64,000 nucleotides of DNA from Impatiens glandulifera (lineage: Eukaryota; Streptophyta; Magnoliopsida; Ericales; Balsaminaceae). Within the stretch, counting starts at the first letter, position 1. Each line of letters starts with the position of its first letter. The position numbers and the translations under genes are program-made. The notes under the pieces were generated by a model that ran no database searches, was not told the DNA's origin, and saw only the letters and a program-made list of their open reading frames with translations. Below, piece after piece: positions 785-59,939 of this stretch. Location of the stretch: assembly GCF_907164915.1 (NCBI RefSeq), contig NC_061867.1, positions 52,827,852 to 52,891,851 on the forward strand, in the 5' to 3' direction.

Positions 785-3700
785 ATGGCAAACGAGAATA
801 GTATAGGACACAGGATTGGAAGATTTGATGGAATAGATTATGCCTTCTAGAGAATGCGGATTGAGGATTATCTCTATAGAAAGAAGCTTCATGTTCCTTT
901 GAGTGAGAAACTAGAGAAGATGGATGAAGCTGAATGAAAACTCCTTGATAAAGATGTTTTGAGAGTTGTCCGATTGACGCTAGCCAAGACAGTATCTCAC
1001 AATGTAAAAAAGGAGAAGACCACCATTGGTCTGATGAAAGCTCTTTCTGATATGTATGAGAAATATCTGCTAACAAGAAGGTCATTTAATGAAGAGACTT
1101 TTTATACTTAAGAATGGTTGATGGTACTTCTATCACTACACATTTGAACGAATTCAATACAATTGTGAATCAACTGATATCTGTTGAGATTGATTTTGGG
1201 GACGAAGTTAGTGCCTGATTTTGTTGCCATCTCTATCAAATAGTTGGGAACCTATGAGGGAAACAATTAATAACTCTGTTGGAAATTTTAAATTGAAAAT
1301 TATTGAAATTAAAGATCATATTCTTACTGAAGAGGTTCGTAAAATTGATTATAATAAAACGTTCAAAGGTTCTGCTCTAAATATTCAAAATATGGTAGAG
1401 GAATGATAGAAATTTTAATCGAGGTAAGAGTAGATCTATGTCGAGGAATAGGAGGAGTCAGTTCAAGTCTGGGCGGATATTTGATTGCTGAAATTGTGGT
1501 AAGAAGGGTAACTTGAAGATGAACTGCAAATCACCGAAGAGAAATGGTGATGATAAAAATGATACAACCAACGCAGTTACAAAAACTCTCACTAATGCAT
1601 AGCCCGATAGATTCATGGGTTTTGGACTCGGGAGCATCTTTCCACACCACTGCCTACAAAGAATTAATGGAAAATTATGTAGTTGGAAACTGTGGGAAGG
1701 TTTATCTCGTAGATGATGAGCCACTAGATATTGTTGGCATAGGGACATCAAATTGAAGATGGAAAATAATTCTTTTTCGAAGATTAATAAGGTGAGACAC
1801 ATTCGAATCTGATTTCTATTCCATAACTAGATGAAGAAGGTCACAATTTCAGTTGTAAAAATGGTGCGTGGAAGGTGACTAAAAGAGCGATAGTTGTTGC
1901 TCGAGGTCTCTATATTGGAACATTATACACAAAATCAACATGTATAGAAAAAATTTGCAACTGTAATTAATGACTTAGAGAACAATGAGCTATAACATTG
2001 CAGGTTGGGCCATATGAGAGAAAAAGGATGAAAATTATTTTGAAGAATGGTCAGATTCCATAACTAAAGTCTTTTGAACATCAATTATGCGAAAACTGTA
2101 TTCTTGAAAAATAGAAATGAGTGAGTTGTTTAAGAAAAAAAAAAGGAGCTCAAGCAAAAAGTCTAGAGTTGGTACACACTGATGTGTGGGGACCTACACC
2201 TGTTTATTCTATTGGCGAATCATACTACTACGTGACGTTTATAGATGATTCGACGAGAAAGGTATGGGTATATTTTATGAAGAACAAATCTGATTTATTT
2301 GTGGTTTTCAAAAAGTGAAAGACTTTGGTTATAAATGAAACAAATCAGAAGGTTAAATGTTTGAGATTCGATAATGGAGGCGAGTACATCAGTTCAAATT
2401 TAAGAGAATATTATGTTATAAATGGGATCAGTATGGTGAAGATTGGTCCCCGAATGCCTCCATAGAATGAAGTAGTTGAACGGATGAATAGAACATTGAA
2501 CGAGCGTGCTAGAAGCATGAGATTGCATGTAGGGCTACCTAAAACCTTATGGGCAGAAGCTATCAACATTGTTACCTACTTGATAAACAAAGAACCCTTT
2601 GTTCCTCTTGAATTCAGAATTCTTCAAGAAGTCTGGAGCAATAAAAAAGGTAAATCTTTTTTATTTAAACGTGTTTGGTTGTTTATCATATGTTAATATT
2701 AATGAATGTGATAAGAGCAAACGTATCCAAAATCTAATAAATGTTTTTTCATTGGTTATTGTGATATCGAGTTTGGTTATAGTTTATGGGATAATCAAAA
2801 CCGGAAGATCATTCGTAACAGAAACGTTATCTTCAATGAACATGTTCTCTACTAAGATTGTGTTGGGAAAATATCAGATGGTGATTCCAAATTGGAAGAA
2901 ACTAATATTGTCGACTTGGGAGATTTTTCTGCTGAATATATATCGACTATTGAAAAACACCAATGTGTTGTTGAGGATGAAATTGTTGAGAACGTGGCCC
3001 TAGAGGCAAATCAGCAAACACCGATTATACAGTTGAAAAGATTCTCAAAAAATCAAAACCATTCGAAGGATGGTCCTCTTCTCTGAACTATATCTTGTTG
3101 AATGATAGAGATGAACCTAAACGCTACGAAAAAACAATACAAGCTGATGAATCATTTTACTGGGAGTCTGCAATTAAAGATGAGATTGACTCTTTAACGT
3201 CGAATTAGACTTGGGAGCTCATTGAGCTACCAAAGAGAAAGATAACACTTCACACAAATGGATCTTCGGATTAAAAAAGAACATGACAAAACCATGAGGT
3301 ACAAGACAAGGTTGGTTGTGAAAGGATTTCAACAAAAGGAAGGTATTGACTACAATGGGATCTTCTCTTCAGTGGTCAAATTGCTAACAATCAAAACTAT
3401 TCTGAGTTTGGTTGTGAAAGAAGACATACATTTTCAACAAATGGATATCAAAACTGTTTTTCTTCATGGTGATTTGGATGAAAATATTTACATACGACAA
3501 CCACAAGGCTTTGAAATCAAAGGAAAAAATAAACTTAAAGTACAATAGTACGATACTTAAGAGGAAGTAGTAAAGTGGATAGTACGATACTTAAGAGGAA
3601 GTATGAGTCTCGTTTTGTGATTTCGAAAGTCTAATTTTAGTTTGGAATGATATGTTGATGCTGACAATGGCGATAATATTGATAGTAAGAAGAGCACAAC

Positions 3701-4100
3701 AATGTAGATTTATACTCTTAGAGGTACTGTAATCAGTTGGATTTCAAAATTGCAGAAGATTGTTATTCTTTATAGTTGTGAAGCAGAGTATGTTGTTATG
3801 ACAAAGGCTATTAAGGAGATGATGTAGTTGCAACATTTTTTGTGAGAATTGTGTCAAGACTACGAGTAAAGTATGTTGCGATGCGAAAGTCAAAGTGTCA
3901 TTCATTTGGCAATGAATCATGTTTACCATGGCAGAACGAAGCATATACAAGTTCGTTATCATTTCATCCGATAAACTTTAGAAGATGGAGTGTTATCTCT
4001 TGAAAAGATTATCGGGAGTGAGAATTCAGTTGATATGCTGACAAAAGTTGTGACAAACGAAAAACTAAAGTTGTGTGCAACTTCAGTTTGTCTTCTTCGT
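785..4100 (+). pseudogene. Inner Copia gag-pol, inactivated
   Basis: The start ATG is at 785. Gag (UBN2/retrotran-gag type) runs to about 1430 and is interrupted by stops at 848 and 935. A zinc knuckle near 1480-1530 keeps C, NCGKKG and a late C, but has an in-frame stop between the first cysteines and N in place of H. The aspartic protease near 1610-1755 retains DSGAS. Integrase (2160-2600) keeps HTDVWGP and DDSTRKVWVYF. RT is limited to LVVKGFQQKEGIDY...QQMDIKTVFLHGDLDENIYI (about 3310-3510). RNase H follows from about 3650 with EAEYVVM. RT motifs carrying the YVDD catalytic site are missing. A 23-base word repeated 34 bp apart (3547 and 3581) marks the deletion junction. Confidence 0.85.
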
Positions 4101-4165
4101 TAGACTACCGGACGAAAAGCCGCTACCGATCGAGAGATGATGAAGTTAGTCTTTAAGTGGGAGAT

Positions 4166-4530
4166 TGTTGAGTTATAAAACCTACACTTATAATAAACTC
4201 TACAAAACTTAATTAGAGACTATTGGGTTTGTATTTGGGTTTGGGCTTGGACCTGACCAAGAGTTATTTAGATTTTATTATCTGAATGTTTACCCTATAA
4301 ATATGTTATTATTTAGATTTTACATTGATAAGAAATAATTTTACAAAGATAAAGTGTGAGGAAAAAACTCTGTATTTTTTCTTCTTCATAGTGAAATCTG
4401 GTGGCGACTAAAGTGGACGTAGCTCATTTCAGTGAACCACTATAAATCTGTGTCTTCTTGTGTTCTTCTTTTCTTGCGGTTTTACAGATCATTTCAAGTA
4501 GGTCAAATTTAGGGGATCCAAATCCTAATA
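4166..4530 (+). repeat. 3' LTR of the inner Copia
   Basis: Direct repeat of 377-742, preceded by a purine tract (AAGTGGGAGA, about 4155-4164) that serves as polypurine tract. It starts TGTTGAG and ends CCTAATA next to the right-hand target duplication GTGCT. Confidence 0.88.
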
Positions 4531-6990
4531 GTGCTAAATGGTTCTTGTTGTTTGCTGATGACCACACACGCTTAAGTTGGGTTTTTCTAATGAGGAAAAA
4601 TCACAAACTAACCAATTTTTCAAGTGTTTTCACACAATGATAAAAAACCAGTTTCAACTTAACATTCAAGTCTTTCATTCTATAATATATGAGAGTTTTT
4701 TAACAATCAACTTGGTAATTATTTTAACTCTCATGGTATTATTCATACTAGTTATTATGTAAAAACACCTTAACAAAATGGTATCCATGAGAGGAAAATA
4801 AACATTTACTTGAGGTTGCTAGGTTCATAATGGTCGCCTTTAACGTCCCTAAACAGTTTTAGGGGGAAGTTTTCATCACCGCCACTTATCTCATCAAACA
4901 AATGTCACCTCGAGTTCACTCATTCCAAACCCCATGTGAATTCCTACAACTCGAGTTCCCCACTACACACCTTATCTTTAATTTAAAAATGTGAATCTTT
5001 GGGTATTCGTTTTTTTTCCACCTCTATGATCAAAGTAAACTAGACCCAAAATCTATAAAATGCAATTTTCTAGGGTATTCAAATACCAAGAGGGGATATA
5101 AATTCTACTCTCCCCAACTTTAGAAGGTCTTCGTTTCTAAAGATGTAACCTTTCATGAGACATCTTCATTCTATTCGGCGACCATTTAGGGGAGCCAATA
5201 CAAGAATGCCAACCTTGGAATCAAACAGTGGGTTGACATTTACACCCTAAACTAACCTAACATAGAGTCACCCGACATCATCACCCAAACACCAACTCCT
5301 ACACCATCAGAAAATACCGCCTCCATCTCAGACATCCAGGAAGAACCCTCCAATCTAGGTCCTAACTCGATTGATGCATGTAACATCTTACACTTTCCCA
5401 ATATTGCTCCTAAAATTATTTACCTAGATGTTCCTATTGAGAAAGTCATCAAGATATTGCGGGTCATATCTCTTAGAAGACTATATGTATTATGAAAAGC
5501 TCTTCAACTATTATAGAGCCTTCAATACCAAGACATACCAAATATAAATTCTTCAAAGTATTAGCGAGACTCTTACAAGCCTGGATTGGAAGACACATGC
5601 GTGTAATGAGATCTGAGCTCTCAAGAAAAATGGAACATGGGAGATGGTGAAACTTTCTCTAGGGAAGAAAATGGGGGGTGTAGATGGTTGTTTAGTGTTA
5701 AATAAAACCTTGATGGGTTAGTGGAGAGATTCAAGTTACGTTTAGTTGCTAAAGGATATACGTAGGCCTATGGATTTGATTATGGAGAGACTTTCGTGTC
5801 CGTTACTAAAATAAATATTGTGCGCATATTCTTGTCTTTTGTAGCAAATCTTGAGTGGCCACTACATCAACTAGATGTAAAGAATACATTTTTGAATGGA
5901 GACCTTGAGGAAGAAGTGTACATGGATGTACCACCTAGATTCGGTTCAAAAACTAACATCGATAAGGTTTGCAAACTTAAGAAGTCTTTGTACGGATTAA
6001 AGCAATCCCCACATGCCTAGTTTGGAAAGTTCTCGTTTGTTCTTACGTACCATGGTTTCTTACAAAGTCTTGCAAATCACACACTATTCACAAAACATTT
6101 TTAGGATGGGAAGTGTACTATATTTAGTGTTTATGTGGATGAGATAATGCTCACTAGTAATGCCAATAATGAAATTCAGAAGCTCGAGATATGTATGTCA
6201 TTTTAGTTTGAGGTCAAGGACCTATGGGTTCTTAAGTAATTCCTTGAGATGGAGGTGGCACGCTTCAACACTAGAATCTTAGTAACCCAAATGAAGTATT
6301 TCCTAGACTTACTAAAAAAACTAGATTACTTGGCTACAAACTAGTGGATTAAAACATGAAACTAAGTGTTTGAACTTATGAAGCACCAGTAGATAAAGGG
6401 AAATATCATTGTCTAGTTGGGAAGCTCATATATCTTACACATATGCAACCTGACATAGGATTCGTGGTGAGCATGATAAGTTGATTTATGAGCAACCCAT
6501 CAATCACTCACATTAAAACAGACATGAGAACTCTTTGTTATCTCAAAACTTCCCCAAGAATTGGTTTATTTTTCAAGAACTCTAGTGGAGATATAATTGT
6601 CTTCACCGATGCTGATTGGGCAAGATCCATTTCAGACAGCAGATAAACTTTAGATATGTGTACCTATGTCTAGGGTAATCTTGTTACTTGGCGCTCCAAA
6701 TAACAATCTGGTGTGGCTCGCAGCAGTGCTGAGGATGTATTGCTTTCATTAGCTCATGGAGTGTGTGAATGGTTGTGGATTAAAAGAGTGTGTGTTTATG
6801 CCCCATTCGCATGTTGTATGACAATCAAGCTATTATGATAATGTCAATAGACTCATTTCATTATGACAGATATTGAGATCGATTTTCATTTACTAGCAAA
6901 AAACTGGAAGATCATACTATCTCTATGAAATACATTCTGTCTCAAAGTCAAGAAGCTGACATCTGAACTAAACCGCTGCCTAGACCTATT
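4531..6990 (+). pseudogene. Outer Copia: integrase second half, RT and RNase H
   Basis: Integrase resumes at 4531 (AKWFLLFADDHTRLSWVF). RT shows LVAKGYT, then an interrupted YGFDYGETF, then PLHQLDVKNTFLNGDLEEEV and KLKKSLYGLKQSPHA (5740-6018). The catalytic motif has become VDEIMLTSN near 6135-6160, where Copia RT usually has YVDDM. RNase H traces occur at about 6600-6790 (ADWARS, RSSAED). Stops are frequent, for example at 5764 and 6018. It is non-functional. Confidence 0.83.
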
Positions 6991-22100: not shown

Positions 22101-26199
<4,099 letters not shown>

Positions 26200-26321: not shown

Positions 26322-26534
26322 TGTTGCAAGCTTAATTAGATATTGTTTTGAATATTTCATGATATTTTCTTTATTGATTCATATTTTAGTATGGTAGAAA
26401 TAATTTAAAATTAAAAATAAAAGATAAATGAAATTTTAAACCATGTTTAAATTCTAAATGGAATTGTACATCCCAGTCCTCCCAGATTCTTCTTCTTCTG
26501 ATTTCTTTCATATTATCATTTATTTGATATAGAA

Positions 26535-29500
26535 TCTATATATATCTAATGATGCTTAATTTAAAATGTTGGAGGTGGGCATCACGCTCTCTCCAAAATG
26601 ATTCACATCATCATCATATAATATTTTCTCTTTCTTAGATATATATATATTACTCTCTCTTCATTTATCTTTATTGATTAATTGTTTTTCTATCCCTTAC
26701 CATATATATATATTCACACTAATAATATATAAAAAAATATATTTTTTCATCAATTCTATTAACCAAGTTTCTTAATTAATTATTCTATGTCGGTTACTCT
26801 TTTTATATATATATTAATATTTTTTATTAATTATTTTAAAAATAAACCTAATTAATTCTCTTCTAAAATATTATATATATTAATCATTCTCTCTCCAAAA
26901 TGATTCATATCATCATCATAGGTATTTTCTCTTTCTTAGATATATTTATTTCTCTCTTCTTTGTCTCCCCTTAAGTCTTTATTTGTTATAGAGAGTTGTT
27001 GATTATACATATTCTATTTGTTATTGATGCAATGAATATTTTTTCTTGAGTTTTTGTTGACATAATGTTGTCATTTTCATAGGGAGAATGAGACTTTCAA
27101 TTATTTCAAAGAAGATCTATATTTGTGTAATGTGGTATGAACTCTTGAGCTCAAATCTAAACTTTTTATCATATATTTTTATTAGTTCTTGAAATAATTT
27201 TTCTTCTTTATTATGTTTCGTCTCTCCTTAAGTCTTACTTTATATATAATAATTCCCGATTTGTTTGGTTGGTTTCAAGTATTTTTATACATCACTTTAA
27301 TAGGTTGATTTTTAATATTTCAATTAATGTTTTGATGAAGATAATGAGATCATTGGATTCAAGGTCATAATGGTGCAATCATGGTTATGCAAAGTTGTTT
27401 TTGGTGATAATCGTGTTATCATGCCTGGAGGTGTGAGCATTGATAAGTTAGAAATTTAGATCATTTTATCATAAATATAGTTTGTAAAAAGATTTTTTAA
27501 TTTTTCTATTACATTAATTCCTGATTTTGTATATTTAATTACCTTAATTTAAAATGTTGGAGGTGTACATCAAGCTCTCTCAAAAATGATTCACATCATC
27601 ATCATAGTATTTTCTCTTTCATATATATATATATATATTTTTCTCTCTTCATTTATCTTTATTGATTAATTGTTTTTCTATCTCTTACCATATACATATT
27701 CACACTAATAATATATAAAATATATATTTTTTCATTAATTCTATTAACCAAGTTTCATAATTAATTATTCTATATCGGTTACTCTTTTATATATATATAT
27801 ATATATTAATATTTTTTTTATTAATTATTTTAAAAATAAACGTAATGAATTCTCTTCTAAAATATTATATATATTAATCATGCTCTCTCCAAAATGATTC
27901 ACATCATCGTCATAGGTATTTTCTCTTTCTTAGATATATTTATTTCTCTCTCTTCTTTGTTTTTAGCAGGAAATTAGTAATCGTCTTCCCTTAGGTCTTT
28001 ATTTGTTATAGAGAGTTATTGATTATACATATTCTGAAAGGTATTTATTTGTTATTGATGCAATGAATATTTTTTTCTTGAGTTTTTGTTGACGTAATGT
28101 TGTCATTTTCATAGGGAGAACGAGACTTTCAATTATTTCAAAAAAGATCTATATTTGTGTAATGTGGTATGAACTCTTGAGCTCAAGTCTAAACTTCTTA
28201 TCATATATTTTTATTAGTTCTTGATATATAACTTTTCTTCTTTATTATGTTTCGTCTCTCCTTAAGTCTTACTTTATATATAATAATTCCCGATTTGTTT
28301 GGTTGGTTTCAAGTACTTTTAGTCATCACTTTAATAGGTTGATTTTTAATATTTCAATTGATGTTTTGATGGAGATAATGGTTCATTGGATTCCAGGCTA
28401 TAATGGTGTTATCATGGTTATGCAAAGTTGTTTTGGTGATAATCGTGTTATCATGCCTGGAGGTGTGAGCATTGGTAAGTTAGAAATTTAGATCATTTTA
28501 TCATAAAATTCATTTGTAAAAAGATTTTTTAATTTTTCTATTACATTAATTCCTAATTTTGTTTGGTTTATTTCAGATACTTTCAGCCATCTATATATAT
28601 CTAATGAAGCTTAATTTAAAATGTTGGAGGTGGGCATCACCATCACGCTCTCTCCAAAATGATCCACATTATCATCATAGTATTTTCTCTTTCTTAGATA
28701 TATATATATTTCTCTCTCTTCATTTATCTTTATTGATTAATTGTTTTTCTATCCCTTACCATATATATATTCACACTAATAATATATAAAAATATATTTT
28801 TTCATCAATTCTATTAACCAAGTTTCTTAATTAATTATTCTATGTCGGTTACTCTTTTTATATATATATTAATATTTTTTATTAATTATTTTTAAAATAA
28901 ACCTAATTAATTCTCTTCTAAAATATTATATATATTAATCATGCTCTCTCCAAAATGATTCATATCATCATCATAGGTATTTTCTCTTTCTTAGATATAT
29001 TTATTTCTCTCTTCTTTGTTCTTAGCAAAAATCAGAAATCGTCTCCCCTTAAGTCTTTATTTGTTATAGAGAGTTATTGATTATACATATTCTATTTGTT
29101 ATTGATGCAATGAATATTTTTTCTTGAGTTTTTGTTGACATAATGTTGTCATTTTCATAGGGAGAACGAGACTTTCAATTATTTCAAAGAAGATCTATAT
29201 TTGTGTAATGTGGTATGAACTCTTGAGCTCAAGTCTAAACTTCTTATCATATATTTTTATTAGTTCTTGATATATAACTTTTCTTCTTTATTATGTTTCG
29301 TCTCTCCTTAAGTCTTACTTTATATATAATAATTCCCGATTTGTTTGGTTGGTTTCAAGTACTTTTAGTCATCACTTTAATAGGTTGATTTTTAATATTT
29401 CAATTGATGTTTTGATGGAGATAATGGTTCATTGGATTCCAGGCTATAATGGTGTTATCATGGTTATGCAAAGTTGTTTTGGTGATAATCGTGTTATCAT

Positions 29501-30908
29501 GCCTGGAGGTGTGAGCATTGGTAAGTTAGAAATTTAGATCATTTTATCATAAAATTCATTTGTAAAAAGATTTTTTAATTTTTCTATTACATTAATTCCT
29601 AATTTTGTTTGGTTTATTTCAGATACTTTCAGCCATCTATATATATCTAATGAAGCTTAATTTAAAATGTTGGAGGTGGGCATCACCATCACGCTCTCTC
29701 CAAAATGATCCACATTATCATCATAGTATTTTCTCTTTCTTAGATATATATATATTTCTCTCTCTTCATTTATCTTTATTGATTAATTGTTTTTCTATCC
29801 CTTACCATATATATATTCACACTAATAATATATAAAAATATATTTTTTCATCAATTCTATTAACCAAGTTTCTTAATTAATTATTCTATGTCGGTTACTC
29901 TTTTTATATATATATTAATATTTTTTATTAATTATTTTTAAAATAAACCTAATTAATTCTCTTCTAAAATATTATATATATTAATCATGCTCTCTCCAAA
30001 ATGATTCATATCATCATCATAGGTATTTTCTCTTTCTTAGATATATTTATTTCTCTCTTCTTTGTTCTTAGCAAAAATCAGAAATCGTCTCCCCTTAAGT
30101 CTTTATTTGTTATAGAGAGTTATTGATTATACATATTCTATTTGTTATTGATGCAATGAATATTTTTTCTTGAGTTTTTGTTGACATAATGTTGTCATTT
30201 TCATAGGGAGAACGAGACTTTCAATTATTTCAAAGAAGATCTATATTTGTGTAATGTGGTATGAACTCTTGAGCTCAAATCTAAACTTTTTATCATATAT
30301 TTTTATTAGTTCTTGAAATAATTTTTCTTCTTTATTATGTTTCGTCTCTCCTTAAGTCTTACTTTATATATAATAATTCCCGATTTGTTTGGTTGGTTTC
30401 AAGTACTTTTAGTCATCACTTTAATAGGTTGATTTTTAATATTTCAATTGATGTTTTGATGAAGATAATGGGATCATTGGATTCAAGGCGATAATGGTGC
30501 AATCATAGTTATGCAAAGTTGTTTTTGGTGATAATCGTGTTATCATGCCTGGAGGTGTGAGCATTGATAAGTTAGAAATTTAGATCATTTTATCATAAAT
30601 ATAGTTTGTAAAAAGATTTTTTAATTTTTCTATTACATTAATTCCTAATTTTGTATATCTAATTATCTTAATTTAAAATGTTGGAGGTGTACATCAAGCT
30701 CTCTAAAAAATGATTCACATCATCATCATTTTTTTTTCTTTCTTATATATATATATATATATATTTTCTCTCTTCATTTATTTTTATTGATTAATTGTTT
30801 TTCTATCCCTTACCATATATATATTCACACTAATAATATATAAAATATATATTTTTTCATTAATTCTATTAACCAAGTTTCATAATTAATTATTCTATAT
30901 CGGTTACT

Positions 30909-30982
<74 letters not shown>

Positions 30983-31755
30983 TTTTTTTTATTAATTATT
31001 TTAAAAATAAACCTAATGAATTCTCTTCTAAAATATTATATATATTAATCATGCTCTCTCCAAAATGATTCACATCATCGTCATAGGTATTTTCTCTTTC
31101 TTAGATATATTTATTTCTCTCTCTTCTTTGTTTTTAGCAGGAAATCAGTAATCGTCTTCCCTTAGGTCTTTATTTGTTATAGAGAGTTGTTGATTATATA
31201 TATTCTGAAAGGTATTTATTTGTTATTGATGCAATGAATATTTTTTTCTTGAGTTTTTGTTGACGTAATGTTGTCATTTTCATAGGGAGAACGAGACTTT
31301 CAATTATTTCAAAGAAGATCTATATTTGTGTAATGTGGTATGAACTCTTGAGCTTAAGTCTAAACTTCTTATCCTATATTTTTATTAGTTCTTGATATAT
31401 AACTTTTCTTCTTTATTATGTTTCGTCTCTCCTTAAGTCTTACTTTATATATAATAATTCCCGATTTGTTTGGTTGGTTTCAAGTACTTTTAGTCATCAC
31501 TTTAATAGGTTGATTTTTAATATTTCAATTGATGTTTTGATGGAGATAATGGTTCATTGGATTCCAGGCGATAATGGTGCTATCATGGTTATGCAAAGTT
31601 GTTTTGGTGATAATCGTGTTATCATGCCTGGAGGTGTGAGCATTGGTAAGTTAGAAATTTAGATCATTTTATCATAAAATTCATTTGTAAAAAGATTTTT
31701 TAATTTTTCTATTACATTAATTCCTAATTTTGTTTGGTTTATTTCAGGTACTTTC
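26535..31755 (+). repeat. Tandem array of five ~1-1.1-kb units inside the Helitron
   Basis: Units start at about 26535, 27526, 28587, 29633 and 30652, each with (TCTATATATATC)TAAT..CTTAATTTAAAATGTTGGAGG. Two subtypes occur: units 1, 3 and 4 have GGTGGGCATCAC, units 2 and 5 have GGTGTACATCAAG. Each unit ends with a segment reading MVMQSCFGDNRVIMPGGVSIG, followed by GTAAGT-like and TTTCAG-like splice words (units 1 and 4 read GATAAG at the donor position). From about 28146 to 29232 the sequence looks identical to that 1046 bp further on. I do not recognise a gene in the unit; the intron-like layout would fit a captured gene fragment, but that is inference. Confidence 0.85.
30910..30977. repeat. 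(AT)n microsatellite in array unit 5
   Basis: Uninterrupted TA run that explains most of the extra length of this unit. Unit 2 has a shorter AT run at the same place (27787-27806). Confidence 0.95.
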
Positions 31756-32139
31756 AGCCATTGTAGATCAATATACTTCTGGATGCAAGCTATTGTACTT
31801 CTAAATGTTTGTTTACTTAAAATACTTTAATTTTGAAATAATTGTGTTTAGCTCTATATTTGTATCTTCATATGTATACACTAACTTGGAATAATTGAAG
31901 ATCAAGTATTTTGTTTAATACTCTTAATTTTAATGAAATAATAATTTGTTTTATGAATTTAATTTTATTCTGTAACTTCTATTTTTATGGTATAATAAAA
32001 ATAAACTCAATAAATATAACCTACCATCTATATATATTAATATTTTTTTATTAAATATTTCATTTAAATAATTTGAATGTTTATAAATAAATTCAAATAA
32101 AATAAACCCTTCTCATCTAAAAAGTCATATATAATTATT

Positions 32140-32650
32140 GAGATTTGCATTAAATATTAATATTAATTATGAAAACTATTTAGGAGATTTAAATTGTAAA
32201 AAAATATACTTACATTGAAAACCTCCCATCCATAAAATAAATCATTCAGTTTCATTCTAATTTATAACTAATGAATAGAAAATAAAATTAACGGATAATA
32301 AATATTATTACAACCTTCAATTCATATATGTTAATTATTTATCCAAATAATTAACATCAAATAAAACAAACCCTTTAAGTTCTATTTTGAGATTTGCATT
32401 AAATATTAATATTAATTATAAAAACTATTTAGGAGATTTAAATTGTAAAAAAATATACTCACATTGAATATGTTCACTAACGATAATAAATATTATTATA
32501 ATCTCACATCCATAAAATAAATCATTCAGTTTCATTCTAATTTATAACTAATTAATGGAAATAAAATTAACGGATATTAAATATTATTACAACCTTAAAT
32601 TCATATATATTAATAATTTATCCAAATAATTAACATAAAATAAAACAAAT
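32140..32650. repeat. Two-copy tandem repeat of 249 bp
   Basis: GAGATTTGCATTAAATATTA starts at 32140 and again at 32389. The following TTTAGGAGATTTAAATTGTA and ATCATTCAGTTTCATTCTAA words repeat in order. It lies in the non-array part of the large Helitron. Confidence 0.85.
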
Positions 32651-33644
32651 TAATACAACAAAAAAATGAGTTTCATCTTACAAAATTTTAGACAAATTGT
32701 TAGGTGGTATAAGTAAATTCATAAATAATGAACTTTATTATTATTATTATTATTATTAACTTTATTATTATTATTATGTTTTGACATATTTTAACTTTAA
32801 TGTTATATTGCTGGTTGTTCATTATCTACATTATTTTGGTATTTATATATGTATTTGTCTTTACATTTGATAAAAACTTATTTATTTTTCTTGTCACTAT
32901 TCTATATTTTGGTGATTTGAAATTGAAATAATAAGATGTTTATTAAGAATGTTACCAAACTCTTAGCCTTTTGATATTATACTTTTTATTCTCTATTACT
33001 TTTTCATCTATTCCATTTAAAATGAAATTATCTGCAAGAACATAAAAAGAGAAATTTCGAACATCAGTTTTATTGTTTGAATGTGTAGATCCACTAAATC
33101 CTTATCGGATGATGATTTCAATCGTATTTATTGATCTCTGTAATTTAATTTGGATAAGTTTTGATTGAATCGACACTATGAATAAGAGTTTTGTTTGATA
33201 TTTATAGTCTCGAATTTGTAGGACTTTTAAATGATATTTATAGTCATAAATTTTGAGAAATTAGAACTTATGATTCCTTGTGTTGTGTTCAATTACGATC
33301 CTTACAACCTTAAAAAAATGTAGTAAAAAATATTGTCCAATTATCGATATTCATTCTACTTATTATTTCATCGTATATTTTTTTTATGTTTACAACTTAG
33401 ACTAATTATTATAATATCTATTTATATTAAAATCTCAAAAAATAATACAAAGGAATCCATTTGAATGGTGAATTTAAATAGCAACTACAAGCATTTAGTG
33501 GTTGTTCGCCGAACGAAGATTTATTAAGACGAAAAAAACAGAAAATTTAATTTTTCTTTTATGATTTTTAATTTTTTTTTCATGTTTTTTTAGTTAATAT
33601 ATGTGTTAACTTACTTTCGGGCAAGTGCACAGACTTTTTGCTAG

Positions 33645-33989
33645 TTTATATTAATCATGTTTATTATTATATCATAAAATATAAATTGAATAAGCTTGTA
33701 TCAAAATATTTCGGGGAACAAGTTACTAAATAGGACAGGGTTAGAAACTGTCCTATTTAGTAATTACATACCTTTCACCGAATCTCGTTAAATTTATGAT
33801 ACTTATAAATAAAAAAATAGGTTAAGTTTGTTGTATTTTATATTTTAATACATTGTGTTTTCATTAAAAGTGGAGGGGCTGTAATTCCCAACGTTGCTTC
33901 TAATTTTTTCTCTATGTAAAATCTAGCTTAATATTCTCTCATCTTGTTGATTCACTGTGGTCACAAATCGCCAGAATTCTTTCATGATA
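33645..33989. other. GulLO copy-2 3' flank resumed, then AT-rich spacer
   Basis: ATAAATTGAATAAG (33684-33697) and following words align with 59812-59890 behind copy 3, showing that this is the original gene flank displaced by the Helitron. The segment also contains a short inverted pair, ACTAAATAGGACAG...CTGTCCTATTTAGT (33727-33762). No gene. Confidence 0.65.
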
Positions 33990-56461: not shown

Positions 56462-59400
56462 ATGGGAAATCGAAAACAGTTTCTATTAGCACTAAAACTA
56501 GTGATTATCACCATTAATACTATTATCATCCTGCCCGAGGTTTTCGTTCACGCAGATCCTCCTCAAGATCCCGTTAACTGTCCTTCAAACCACAATTGCA
56601 CCGTGACCAACGCCTACGGAACATTCCCCGACAGAACAATCTGTCGGGCTGCTGACGTGGCATACCCTACAACCGAGGAAGAGCTAGTCTCGGTTGTGGC
56701 AGAAGCTTCTAAGAATGGTCGCAAGATGAGAGTTGTGACACCAACTTCGCACAGCATACCGAAGTTGGCGTGTCCCGATGATGGGGATGGAGGGCTTTTG
56801 ATTAGTACGAGGTTTCTAAATAAGATAATTGAGGTGGACCGAAATAGAATGATTTTGACAGCGGAGAGTGGGGTAAGGCTAAAAGAGTTGATAAGTGAGG
56901 CAGCTAGGTTTGGACTTGCGTTGCCTTATAGTCCTTATTGGTTGGGGGTCACGGTTGGTGGGATGTTGGGGACCGGTGCACACGGAAGCTCGCTATGGGG
57001 TCGAGGGGGTGCGGTTCATGACCATGTTGTCGGTCTTCGTATTGTAACCACGGCTGGACCGGGAGAAGGGTTTGCGAAGGTCCGAAATCTTGTGTCGAAC
57101 GCGGATGATAGTGATAATAATAGTGCAAATGGTTTTGATGCGGCTAGAACTTCTATAGGTGTTCTTGGAGTTATTTCACAGGTATGTTTTATTATTATTA
57201 TTATTATTGTTATTATATAGATTTGAAATTATGGAGCTTTTATAATTTCCTTTTTTCTCCTATTCCATTTTTATTTAACATATATAATAAAAAGATATTC
57301 TATTATCGGGCGGGCCTTGGATAGGCCCAACATAATTAGTCAACTCTCAATTAGTTAGCCTCTGAGCTGAACTTGGGTTTGAAATTTGAACAAATCAAAA
57401 ATTTATTTGAATTTTTTTTTTTATCATTTTTAAATATTTATTTATATTAGATAATGTGATAAATATATTTTTATACGAAAAAACTATAAAGAGTGTTTCT
57501 AGTTAAATTAATTCAAATGGAAGGTTTGTTTTAGTAAGAATTTTAATGTAAACAAAATATATATATTAGTTATATATAATTATTAATTATATATATATAA
57601 TTAAGTATAAAATTAATCTAATAAATAAATTAAAAAAACTACATTACACTTAAAAATGGTAAGAGTTACTACTCTATTGAAATAATTTCATTTGTTTGAA
57701 TAAGTAATAACTTATATAAAACTAATAAATTATGAGATTTATATAATTTATAAATTTGTAAAATATTATACTCATAAATTTAAAATTATAAGAATTTAAG
57801 TAGTTTACAAGTTTACATAAATATGACTTATTAGTATATTTTAAAATTGTAATTCAACTCAAAAAATCATAAGTTGAGATATATGAGAACACATGTCATG
57901 CACATTTCAATTAATCATAGTGAGTTTACATAAATATGAATTAGTTGATTAAGATATATTGAGTGCAGGTAACATTTCAACTGCAACCAATGTTCAAAAG
58001 GTCAATAACCTACCAAATGAAGGATGACAAAGACTTAGGGCAACAAATTGTCAATTTTGGACATCAACACGAGTTTGCAGATCTAACATGGCTTCCCGCT
58101 CAACGAAAGGTTGTGTATCGCCTTGATGATAGAGTCTCCTCTAATGTCTCGGGCAATGGACTTTACAATTACATCGCTCTTCGCCCCACTCCTTCGGCCT
58201 TAATTGCCTCCATCAGAATTTCAGGTTCATATCCATCTCATTCTATATTTTCAAAAGAATGAGACATAAACATACACAATTAAGTTTCTATTAGGGTTGA
58301 ATGAAATTTGAGTAAGCCGACAATTAACCCATTTAGGTCTAAACGGATTGTGTTTAAATTCAATTTTTAATATATGTATAGTTTAGAAAGGGCATGATTG
58401 AACAAAAAAATTAAACATTTTTGTGAGCATTGTTTTTTTTTTTAAATCGTCATTGGAACTCCTCGATAATCATTGATGATCACCAATTAATCAAAGCTTT
58501 CCACAACCAAATAATTCTTTTAGTTATTCTAGTAGCTTCTTCACCCATGATCAATTCTATATTATTGTTATTTATCTTACTTTCACATGTGTTTATGAAT
58601 GATGAACATAGAGGAAATTCAAGAGTCGTTGGGAGATGCCAATGGGAAATGCTTGGAAGGGAAAGCTTCTACCTCAGCTCTCTTCCTTGGTGCCTATGGT
58701 TTGACTAATGATGGTAACTACATTAAAGAAAAAAAAAACATTTTGTTTGGTTTTGTTAATGTTAAAAAATCTAATTTCAAGTCATGATATAAAACAGGCA
58801 TTCTTATGAAGGGTTATCCAGTAATAGGTTATCAAAACCGGATGCAGGCGTCTGGTGGCTGCCTAGACGAACCTGGCGATTTTAAGTTGACGACTTGCCC
58901 ATGGGATCCTCGTATAAAGGGGTTGTTCTTCTTCGATCTTGGAATTAGCATTGGCATGTCCAAAGTAAAAGACTTCATTCATGACATCCAAAACCTAGTG
59001 GAGCTCGAGCCTAAGGCCCTTTGTGTCCTAGAGCTCTACAATGGCATCCTCATGCGCTACGTCAAAGCTTCGACCTCTTACCTAGGAAAAGACGAGGATG
59101 GAGTCGAATTCGACATAATTTTTTATAGGAGCAAGGACCCGAAGACACCTAGGCTGTTTGAGGATGTGTTGGAAGAGGTTGAACAAATGGCACTATTCAA
59201 GTATGGGGGAATGCCACATTGGGGAAAGAACCGACCCATCGCATTCATTGATGTCATTAGCAAGTATAAGAATGCATCTGCGTTCTTGGCCGTCAAGCAA
59301 GAGTGGGATCCATTAGGGCTTTTCTCTAACGAGTGGACAGACCGAGTGTTGAAGGGAGGCGATCATGTGTCGATAGTTAGTGAAGGTTGTGCCCTAGAAG

Positions 59401-59504
59401 GGTTGTGTATATGTTCCGAGGATATTCATTGCGCTCCTAAGTCGGGGTACTATTGTCGTCCCGGAAGGATCTACAAGGAGGCTAGGGTTTGCCGTAAAAT
59501 ATAG
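56462..59504 (+). CDS. L-gulonolactone oxidase-like protein, copy 3 (4 exons, 594 aa)
   Basis: Closest relative of copy 2, with the same predicted role as a secreted FAD-dependent aldonolactone oxidase. Exons: 56462-57181, 57969-58224, 58612-58713, 58798-59504; GT-AG introns, phases 0,1,1. Signal peptide to about residue 31 (FVHA/DPPQDP), candidate flavin histidine H97 in VTPTSHS, HWGKN at 500-504, Cys-rich C-terminus identical in pattern to copy 2. Notable changes: W to L at residue 161 in YSPYWLGVTVGG, part of the FAD domain where copies 1 and 2 keep WW, and NYIALRPT where copies 1 and 2 have NFIPFRPT. The frame is complete, so it is probably expressed, but these changes could alter activity. 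Intron 1 is much shorter than in copy 2. Confidence 0.93.
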
Positions 59505-59939
59505 GTATAAATTATATGATAATATTAGTTGATGAATATGAATAAGTGAATCTTGCATTAAATGGTCCTTTGACTATTACCTATCTATTTACCTTGTATG
59601 TCAATAAATGTTTGTTTAGATCTTGTTTTGAATATTTCATGACATTTTCTTTATTGAGTCATATTTTATATTTTATTGTGGTGGAAAATGAAATTTTAAA
59701 CCATGTTTAAATTCTACTTAAATTGTATATCCCTTCTTCTGATTTCCATCATATTATCATTAATTTGAGAGAGGATTTACATTAATAATATTGATTGTTA
59801 TATTATAAAATATAAATTGAATAAGATGTTTTCAAAATGTGGACCAACAGGTTACTAATTAAGTTGGTTAGACAGTATCACATTTAATAATTAGATAACA
59901 TTCATCAAAGTTCTTTATTAATAGTCAATACATTTAAGA
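59505..59939. other. GulLO copy-3 3' flank holding the unoccupied Helitron site
   Basis: Aligned ungapped with 26495-26534 plus 33645-33694; the A|T at 59775/59776 is the position where the Helitron entered behind copy 2. No gene. Confidence 0.8.
59603..59608 (+). terminator. Candidate polyadenylation signal of GulLO copy 3
   Basis: AATAAA in the same context as after copy 2, 98 bp after the stop. Confidence 0.55.

Follow-up and report, generated by a model that had tools for sequence, protein, structure and literature searches.

The window analysed here is a stretch of 64,000 nucleotides of the Impatiens glandulifera genome (contig NC_061867.1, positions 52,827,852 to 52,891,851 of the forward strand); positions given without a contig prefix are coordinates of this whole window. 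It carries tandem copies of the gene GulLO, of which copy 2 (22101-26199, plus strand) has four coding exons with an intact frame of 592 amino acids and the domains of L-gulonolactone oxidase-like enzymes, and copy 3 (56462-59504, plus strand) lies further downstream. An inserted element of 7110 bp (26535-33644, plus strand), beginning with TC and ending with CTAG, lies between A26534 and T33645. It starts 335 bp past the stop codon of copy 2, and no GulLO reading frame is broken by it. The element is almost certainly a non-autonomous canonical Helitron that was inserted after the duplication leading to copies 2 and 3. Most of its length is taken up by a five-unit head, which is more informative than the insertion itself.

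The insertion can be read from an empty site behind GulLO copy 3 (59736-59825, plus strand). Joining the flanks of the element (26495-26534 and 33645-33694) gives a sequence which aligns to this site without gaps and with 78 of 90 bases identical, the join corresponding to A59775|T59776. A preliminary description of the locus had arrived at about this figure by hand, and a check for a gap or extra bases at the junction revealed none. When the flanks were compared separately with the rest of the window, the best ungapped match was in both cases the empty site, with 34/40 for the left flank (runner-up 24/40) and 44/50 for the right one (runner-up 35/50). A genome search with 59640-59860 led to four places, namely copy 3 itself, both flanks of the element and a second empty site. 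A chance match of the joined flanks is ruled out by each flank's own best match in the window and by this genome search. The second empty site (C6:52910219-52910439) lies behind a fourth GulLO copy, which is located past the end of the window and shares 99.86% identity with copy 3 over 707 bases of exon 4. It also matches the joined flanks at 78 of 90 bases, with the join at the same base; however, since the two empty sites are identical at 89 of 90 bases, the second is a sister of copy 3 and no independent witness. The DNA downstream of GulLO copy 1 did not align to the site and gives no outgroup.

As a rule, the ends of a Helitron have to be inferred, because no target-site duplication marks them. 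According to the empty site, this element was inserted between A and T, without a target-site duplication. The preliminary description regarded both ends as fixed to the base by the alignment. The positions were right, but in the alignment alone the proposed breakpoint ties with a shift of +1, while shifts of -2, -1 and +2 to +7 cost one base each. Because two neighbouring breakpoints are left tied in this way, the decision rests on the ends of the family, A|TC and CTAG|T.

The element belongs to a repeated family in this genome. Its first 201 bases gave at least 77 genome matches (best 40 of 881 candidates scored), of which 44 extend over most of the query, and its last 200 bases gave at least 40 (best 40 of 140 candidates scored). 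Twenty family loci were fetched, all picked by their 5'-end matches, and the sample with unit layouts therefore favours copies having heads. In line with the expectation that other copies share both ends, BLAST matches reach base 33644 downstream of the 5'-end matches in 12 of these 20 copies. In L016 the match stops 2 bases before this position, in L011, L020 and L027 it stops 22, 26 and 20 bases short, in L023 to L025 it breaks off inside the tail, around 32317-32335, and the matches of L026 are irregular.

End patterns were applied to the 20 fetched loci, the window and four loci picked by their 3' end. L023 and L026 were excluded by hand from the 3' count, and no start matched the pattern in L027; the 19 3' ends represent 17 separate sites, with shared 3' flanks in L019/L028 and in L033/L034. 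Of 20 copies, 19 have an A directly in front of the family start, and T follows the end in all 19 copies counted there. Starts read TC in 16 of 20 copies (TA in three, TG in one) and ends read CTAG in 17 of 19 (CTGG and CTAT once each), the window copy having TC and CTAG. Mean pairwise identity rises from 0.34 outside to 0.85 inside the 5' border, and from 0.37 outside to 0.81 inside the 3' border. Thus, unrelated flanks meet family copies at A|TC in front and at CTAG|T behind, which settles the ends of the element. The earlier proposal of a Helitron starting with TC after A26534 and ending with CTAG before T33645 agrees with the family ends as well as with the empty site, and the canonical Helitron signature consists of a TC start, a CTRR end and an AT target (PMC4778049, in excerpt). 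At L033 and L034 (around position 1773, on the strand reading the 3' end), which share their 3' flank, a new 5' terminus follows approximately 72 bp after the 3' end; elements of this family can thus lie head to tail.

Self-BLAST and the unit layout revealed that approximately 5.2 kb of the element (26535-31760) consist of five head-to-tail units of about 1 kb each, in the order A1 B1 A2 A3 B2, all on the plus strand. Unit A1 (26535-27530) begins with the 5' terminus TCTATATATATC. It is followed, across the A-to-B junction TTTTGT|ATAT, by B1 (27531-28589), which ends in CAGCCA. Both A2 (28590-29635) and A3 (29636-30653) restart with the full 5' terminus directly after CAGCCA, and B2 (30654-31760) contains a (TA)n run (30911-30977). 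A single-copy tail (31761-33644, plus strand) ends in the sole 3' terminus CTAG and includes a degenerate repeat pair (32138-32370 and 32387-32649, 84%). The element therefore comprises three full heads (A1, A2 and A3), two shortened ones (B1 and B2), one tail and one CTAG end. The designation as a 7.1-kb Helitron in the preliminary description holds for length and ends, but the array which makes up most of this length had gone unremarked.

The history of the array can be followed in part by comparison with relatives. B1 and B2 begin after a short deletion, and their A-B junction is also present in L010 and L012. The nearest relative with a simple AB layout is L010, with 3.66 kb (1038-4694). 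In trees of unit halves, calculated from seven of the 20 loci and the window, the window's A units cluster with those of L010 and L012 with a support of 100/99 in the 3' half (A2 omitted) and 99/97 in the 5' half, while the B groups are weaker (94/91 and 84/96). From the shared A-B junction and these trees we conclude that the AB head was inherited. Unit A2, on the other hand, is a perfect chimera: its first 643 bp are identical to A3 and its last 446 bp to B1, the two runs overlapping by the 43 bp at 29190-29232 (plus strand). Thus, one unequal crossover at the locus explains its make-up, and on the basis of these identities unequal crossing-over is very probably the origin of A2. Such an exchange between A3 and B1 would add 1046 bp and copy the CAGCCA|TC junction. 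It would be recent, because no difference from A3 or B1 has arisen since. Before this event the element would have had the form (A B)(A B)-tail.

The age of the insertion can be compared with that of the genes. The synonymous divergence (dS) between copies 2 and 3 is 0.103 (39.0 differences at 405.5 sites), with copy 1 at 0.49-0.50, and the flanks of the element differ from the empty site at 12 of 90 bases, corresponding to 0.147. In the last 700 bases of the tail, L012 is identical to the window at 690 of 698 bases (8 differences) and L010 at 679 of 688 (9 differences). The tail tree groups the window with L012 and L010 with a support of 100/98 (bootstrap not settled), and the two halves of the head differ by 18/989 and 18/1057. 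When the 1.1-1.8% found in the tail or between the head halves is set against the gene value of 0.103 or the flank value of 0.147, the gene duplication appears to be roughly six to thirteen times as old as the insertion, provided that rates were similar. The gap-free empty site and the young relatives of the element support the earlier suggestion that it was inserted after copies 2 and 3 had separated.

Copies with several heads are found elsewhere in the family. At up to three errors, at least two unit starts are present in nine of 21 copies, while 17 copies have one 3' end, four have none, and no copy has two. In L026 a second start lies 7.3 kb away at up to four errors. A strict rule of one 3' end may not hold, given two 3'-end matches located 376 bp apart at C3:23887677-23888252. 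The head junctions vary: CAGCCA|TC joins units in the window, which also has the A-B junction known from L010 and L012; L009 has a fold-back, L019 and L028 have a unit with foreign bases, and in L022 the join falls within the tail start. In L009 the internal units are joined through the fold-back (3270-3526 of the oriented copy, and its repeat). Here, the unit end and the tail start recur in reverse complement just ahead of an internal 5' terminus (191 bases at 94-95% and 61 bases at 97-100%), a configuration which suggests strand switching during replication. Further, a 570-bp head unit in L019 (1068-1637) and L028 (904-1473) carries about 30 bases matching no part of the window element; in L028 these foreign bases are present in front of the first start too, which would be expected if the duplication of the head had taken in host flank.

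The family 3' hairpin, CGTGC-AAGC-GCACG, is located 9 bases before CTAG. For two forms of it within the family, the folding energies are -5.5 and -4.7 kcal/mol, with 3 and 7 of 200 shuffled sequences as good, and its core (GTGC, four bases, GCAC) is kept in 15 of 20 tails, the tail of the window being among the five without it. A stop-free frame longer than 88 codons does not exist inside the element, and neither the longest frame nor a 33-amino-acid join of two exon-like stretches has a Pfam match up to E 1. The possibility of a gene inside the element was rejected on account of these short frames and the lack of a Pfam match. From the Helitron family we infer rolling-circle transposition by an HUH transposase. 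A RepHel transposase from another element would then have moved this Helitron, with transposition beginning at TC at the 5' end and terminating at the hairpin and CTAG. A short way downstream of the element lie a piece of a reverse transcriptase (PF00078; 33997-34491, plus strand) and a copia-type gag (PF14223; 36285-37499, minus strand).

How the AB head was doubled is less clear than the origin of A2. A genome search for the CAGCCA|TC junction, with up to three mismatches allowed, located it twice, both times inside this element; one more match, with three mismatches, lies on C2. The equivalent site in the tail copy reads CAGCCA|TTGTAG and thus presents A|T. Counting private derived sites (with unit borders one base off for A2 and A3), we found one shared by A1 and A3, two shared by B1 and B2, and 33 private to single units. 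This ratio of 3 to 33 indicates that the split between the AB halves is about as old as that between the family members. It is tempting to speculate that the doubling goes back to self-insertion, which we give slightly less than an even chance. Self-insertion of two members fits slightly better than copying of a single template in one event. Its specific form, a composite in which the head of one member, cut at the internal A|T, was fused to a whole second member, is put forward more tentatively. Most likely, the head of an AB-type member would have been fused at CAGCCA|TTGTAG to the 5' end of the second member, with one 3' end kept. Self-insertion in place would leave the tail of the outer member behind the inner CTAG. 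At this locus the tail of the first member was not left, as host DNA resumes at the empty site right after the sole CTAG; the outer tail was therefore never present or was removed by tail-tail recombination. Correspondingly, the composite may either have jumped as one unit or have lost a tail through recombination between tails.

Two other routes to the doubled head were considered. The AB unit could have been multiplied by rolling-circle copying of a circular template without the 3' terminator, the multimer being inserted in one event, a model credited to Xiong, Dooner and Du 2016 and cited here through PMC12628747. The published pattern of many 5' ends with a single 3' end (PMC12628747, in excerpt) resembles the counts in this family (two or more starts in 9/21 copies, two 3' ends in 0/21), and the restriction of CAGCCA|TC to this locus would also fit. 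Nevertheless, we regard this route as doubtful, since it predicts halves sharing many private changes instead of 3 against 33, since the A-B junction common to L010, L012 and the window means that part of the array was inherited and not made in this jump, and since the paired 3'-end matches on C3 may not agree with it. Duplication or recombination after insertion, in place and without transposase, seems unlikely. It is true that A2 shows unequal exchange to operate on the array, and that the 570-bp head unit of L019 and L028 ends in the foreign bases which a flank-including duplication would leave. However, homologous exchange alone cannot create the first CAGCCA|TC junction, chance breakpoints would need to hit both the exact 5' terminus and A|T, and the halves are about as different as separate family members.

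As to the insertion itself, the empty sites could be explained by exact excision of the element from copies 3 and 4, and putative Helitron excisions have been reported in rice (PMC4683698, in excerpt). This is highly improbable, because the rice cases in that excerpt left remnants, deletions or filler whereas the site here is gap-free, and because the nearest relatives, at 1.1-1.3%, are far too young for the duplication. Still less credible is an insertion of another kind of repeat. The element lacks a RepHel gene and the hairpin is lost in this copy, but TC, CTAG, the A|T site, the absence of a target-site duplication and the family hairpin all combine to identify a Helitron.

Several observations weigh against our interpretation of a non-autonomous Helitron with a composite head. 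Since CAGCCA|TC was found only in this element, no composite donor is visible, and the confinement of the junction to this locus points to a composite made in place or while the element was jumping. The test of shared sites loses weight on the A side through the rearrangement of the L012 A unit (L012A), which has 53 private sites. The array is known from one assembly without reads, and A2 could in principle be an assembly duplicate. In the window copy the place of the hairpin (33618-33631, plus strand) reads CGGGC-AAGT-GCACA and does not fold (-1.4 kcal/mol, 123 of 200 shuffles as good). We read this as decay of one copy, which lowers the claim of continued competence, but not that of family membership. 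Finally, the genome search for the Helitron replication initiator yielded no intact gene, but six PF14214 (Helitron_like_N) matches (L039-L044; C1:72751363-72751819, C3:54241437-54241850, C1:24125245-24128978), which are partial or contain stops, and the family ends are absent from all six stretches around them.

The value of the locus lies in the presence of filled and empty states side by side, and in the fact that the growth of the element can be ordered. The AB head is shared with relatives, the doubling is seen at this locus only, and the last unit comes from a crossover mapped to 43 bases. If the composite reading is true, self-insertion as a proposed route to multi-headed Helitrons gains a stepwise-ordered case, with the succession of gene duplication, insertion, doubling and a single mapped crossover. 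Intermediates of nested self-insertion would read CTAG joined to TTGTAGATCA, at the A|T where the halves meet. Thus, the locus is a worked example of Helitrons gaining tandem heads, a suggested source of satellite-like repeats, and no principle is changed by it.

Helitron arrays which have more than one 5' end but a single 3' end have been published before, and both the insertion and the five-unit head are of known kinds. The rice non-autonomous Helitron DHH_Mothra (PMC4683698, in excerpt) resembles the present element in its TC start, CTAG end, A|T insertion, low GC content and absence of RepHel, and also in having blocks of tandem repeats and a variable size, which that study put down to slippage or unequal crossing-over. 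Its repeats are internal blocks, however, whereas in the present element every A unit begins anew with the 5' terminus. Several heads and one tail are likewise found in tandem arrays of plants that combine multiple 5' Helitron ends with a single 3' end (PMC12628747, in excerpt); these are described as truncated elements with several to several hundred repeats, in contrast to five units behind a gene with an empty site. FoHeli (PMC5148889, in excerpt), for which self-insertion was proposed, also combines multiple 5' termini with one 3' terminus, but it is a Helitron2-type element of a fungus (Fusarium) and its duplicated head is typically shorter than 200 bp, compared with approximately 1 kb here. 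Last but not least, paralogous empty sites have been used to fix the ends of Helentrons and Helitrons (PMC4067079, in excerpt), which is the same test as applied here. Unlike in the cases of that excerpt, the filled and the empty state in I. glandulifera are both found behind tandem copies of a single gene, no more than 34 kb apart.

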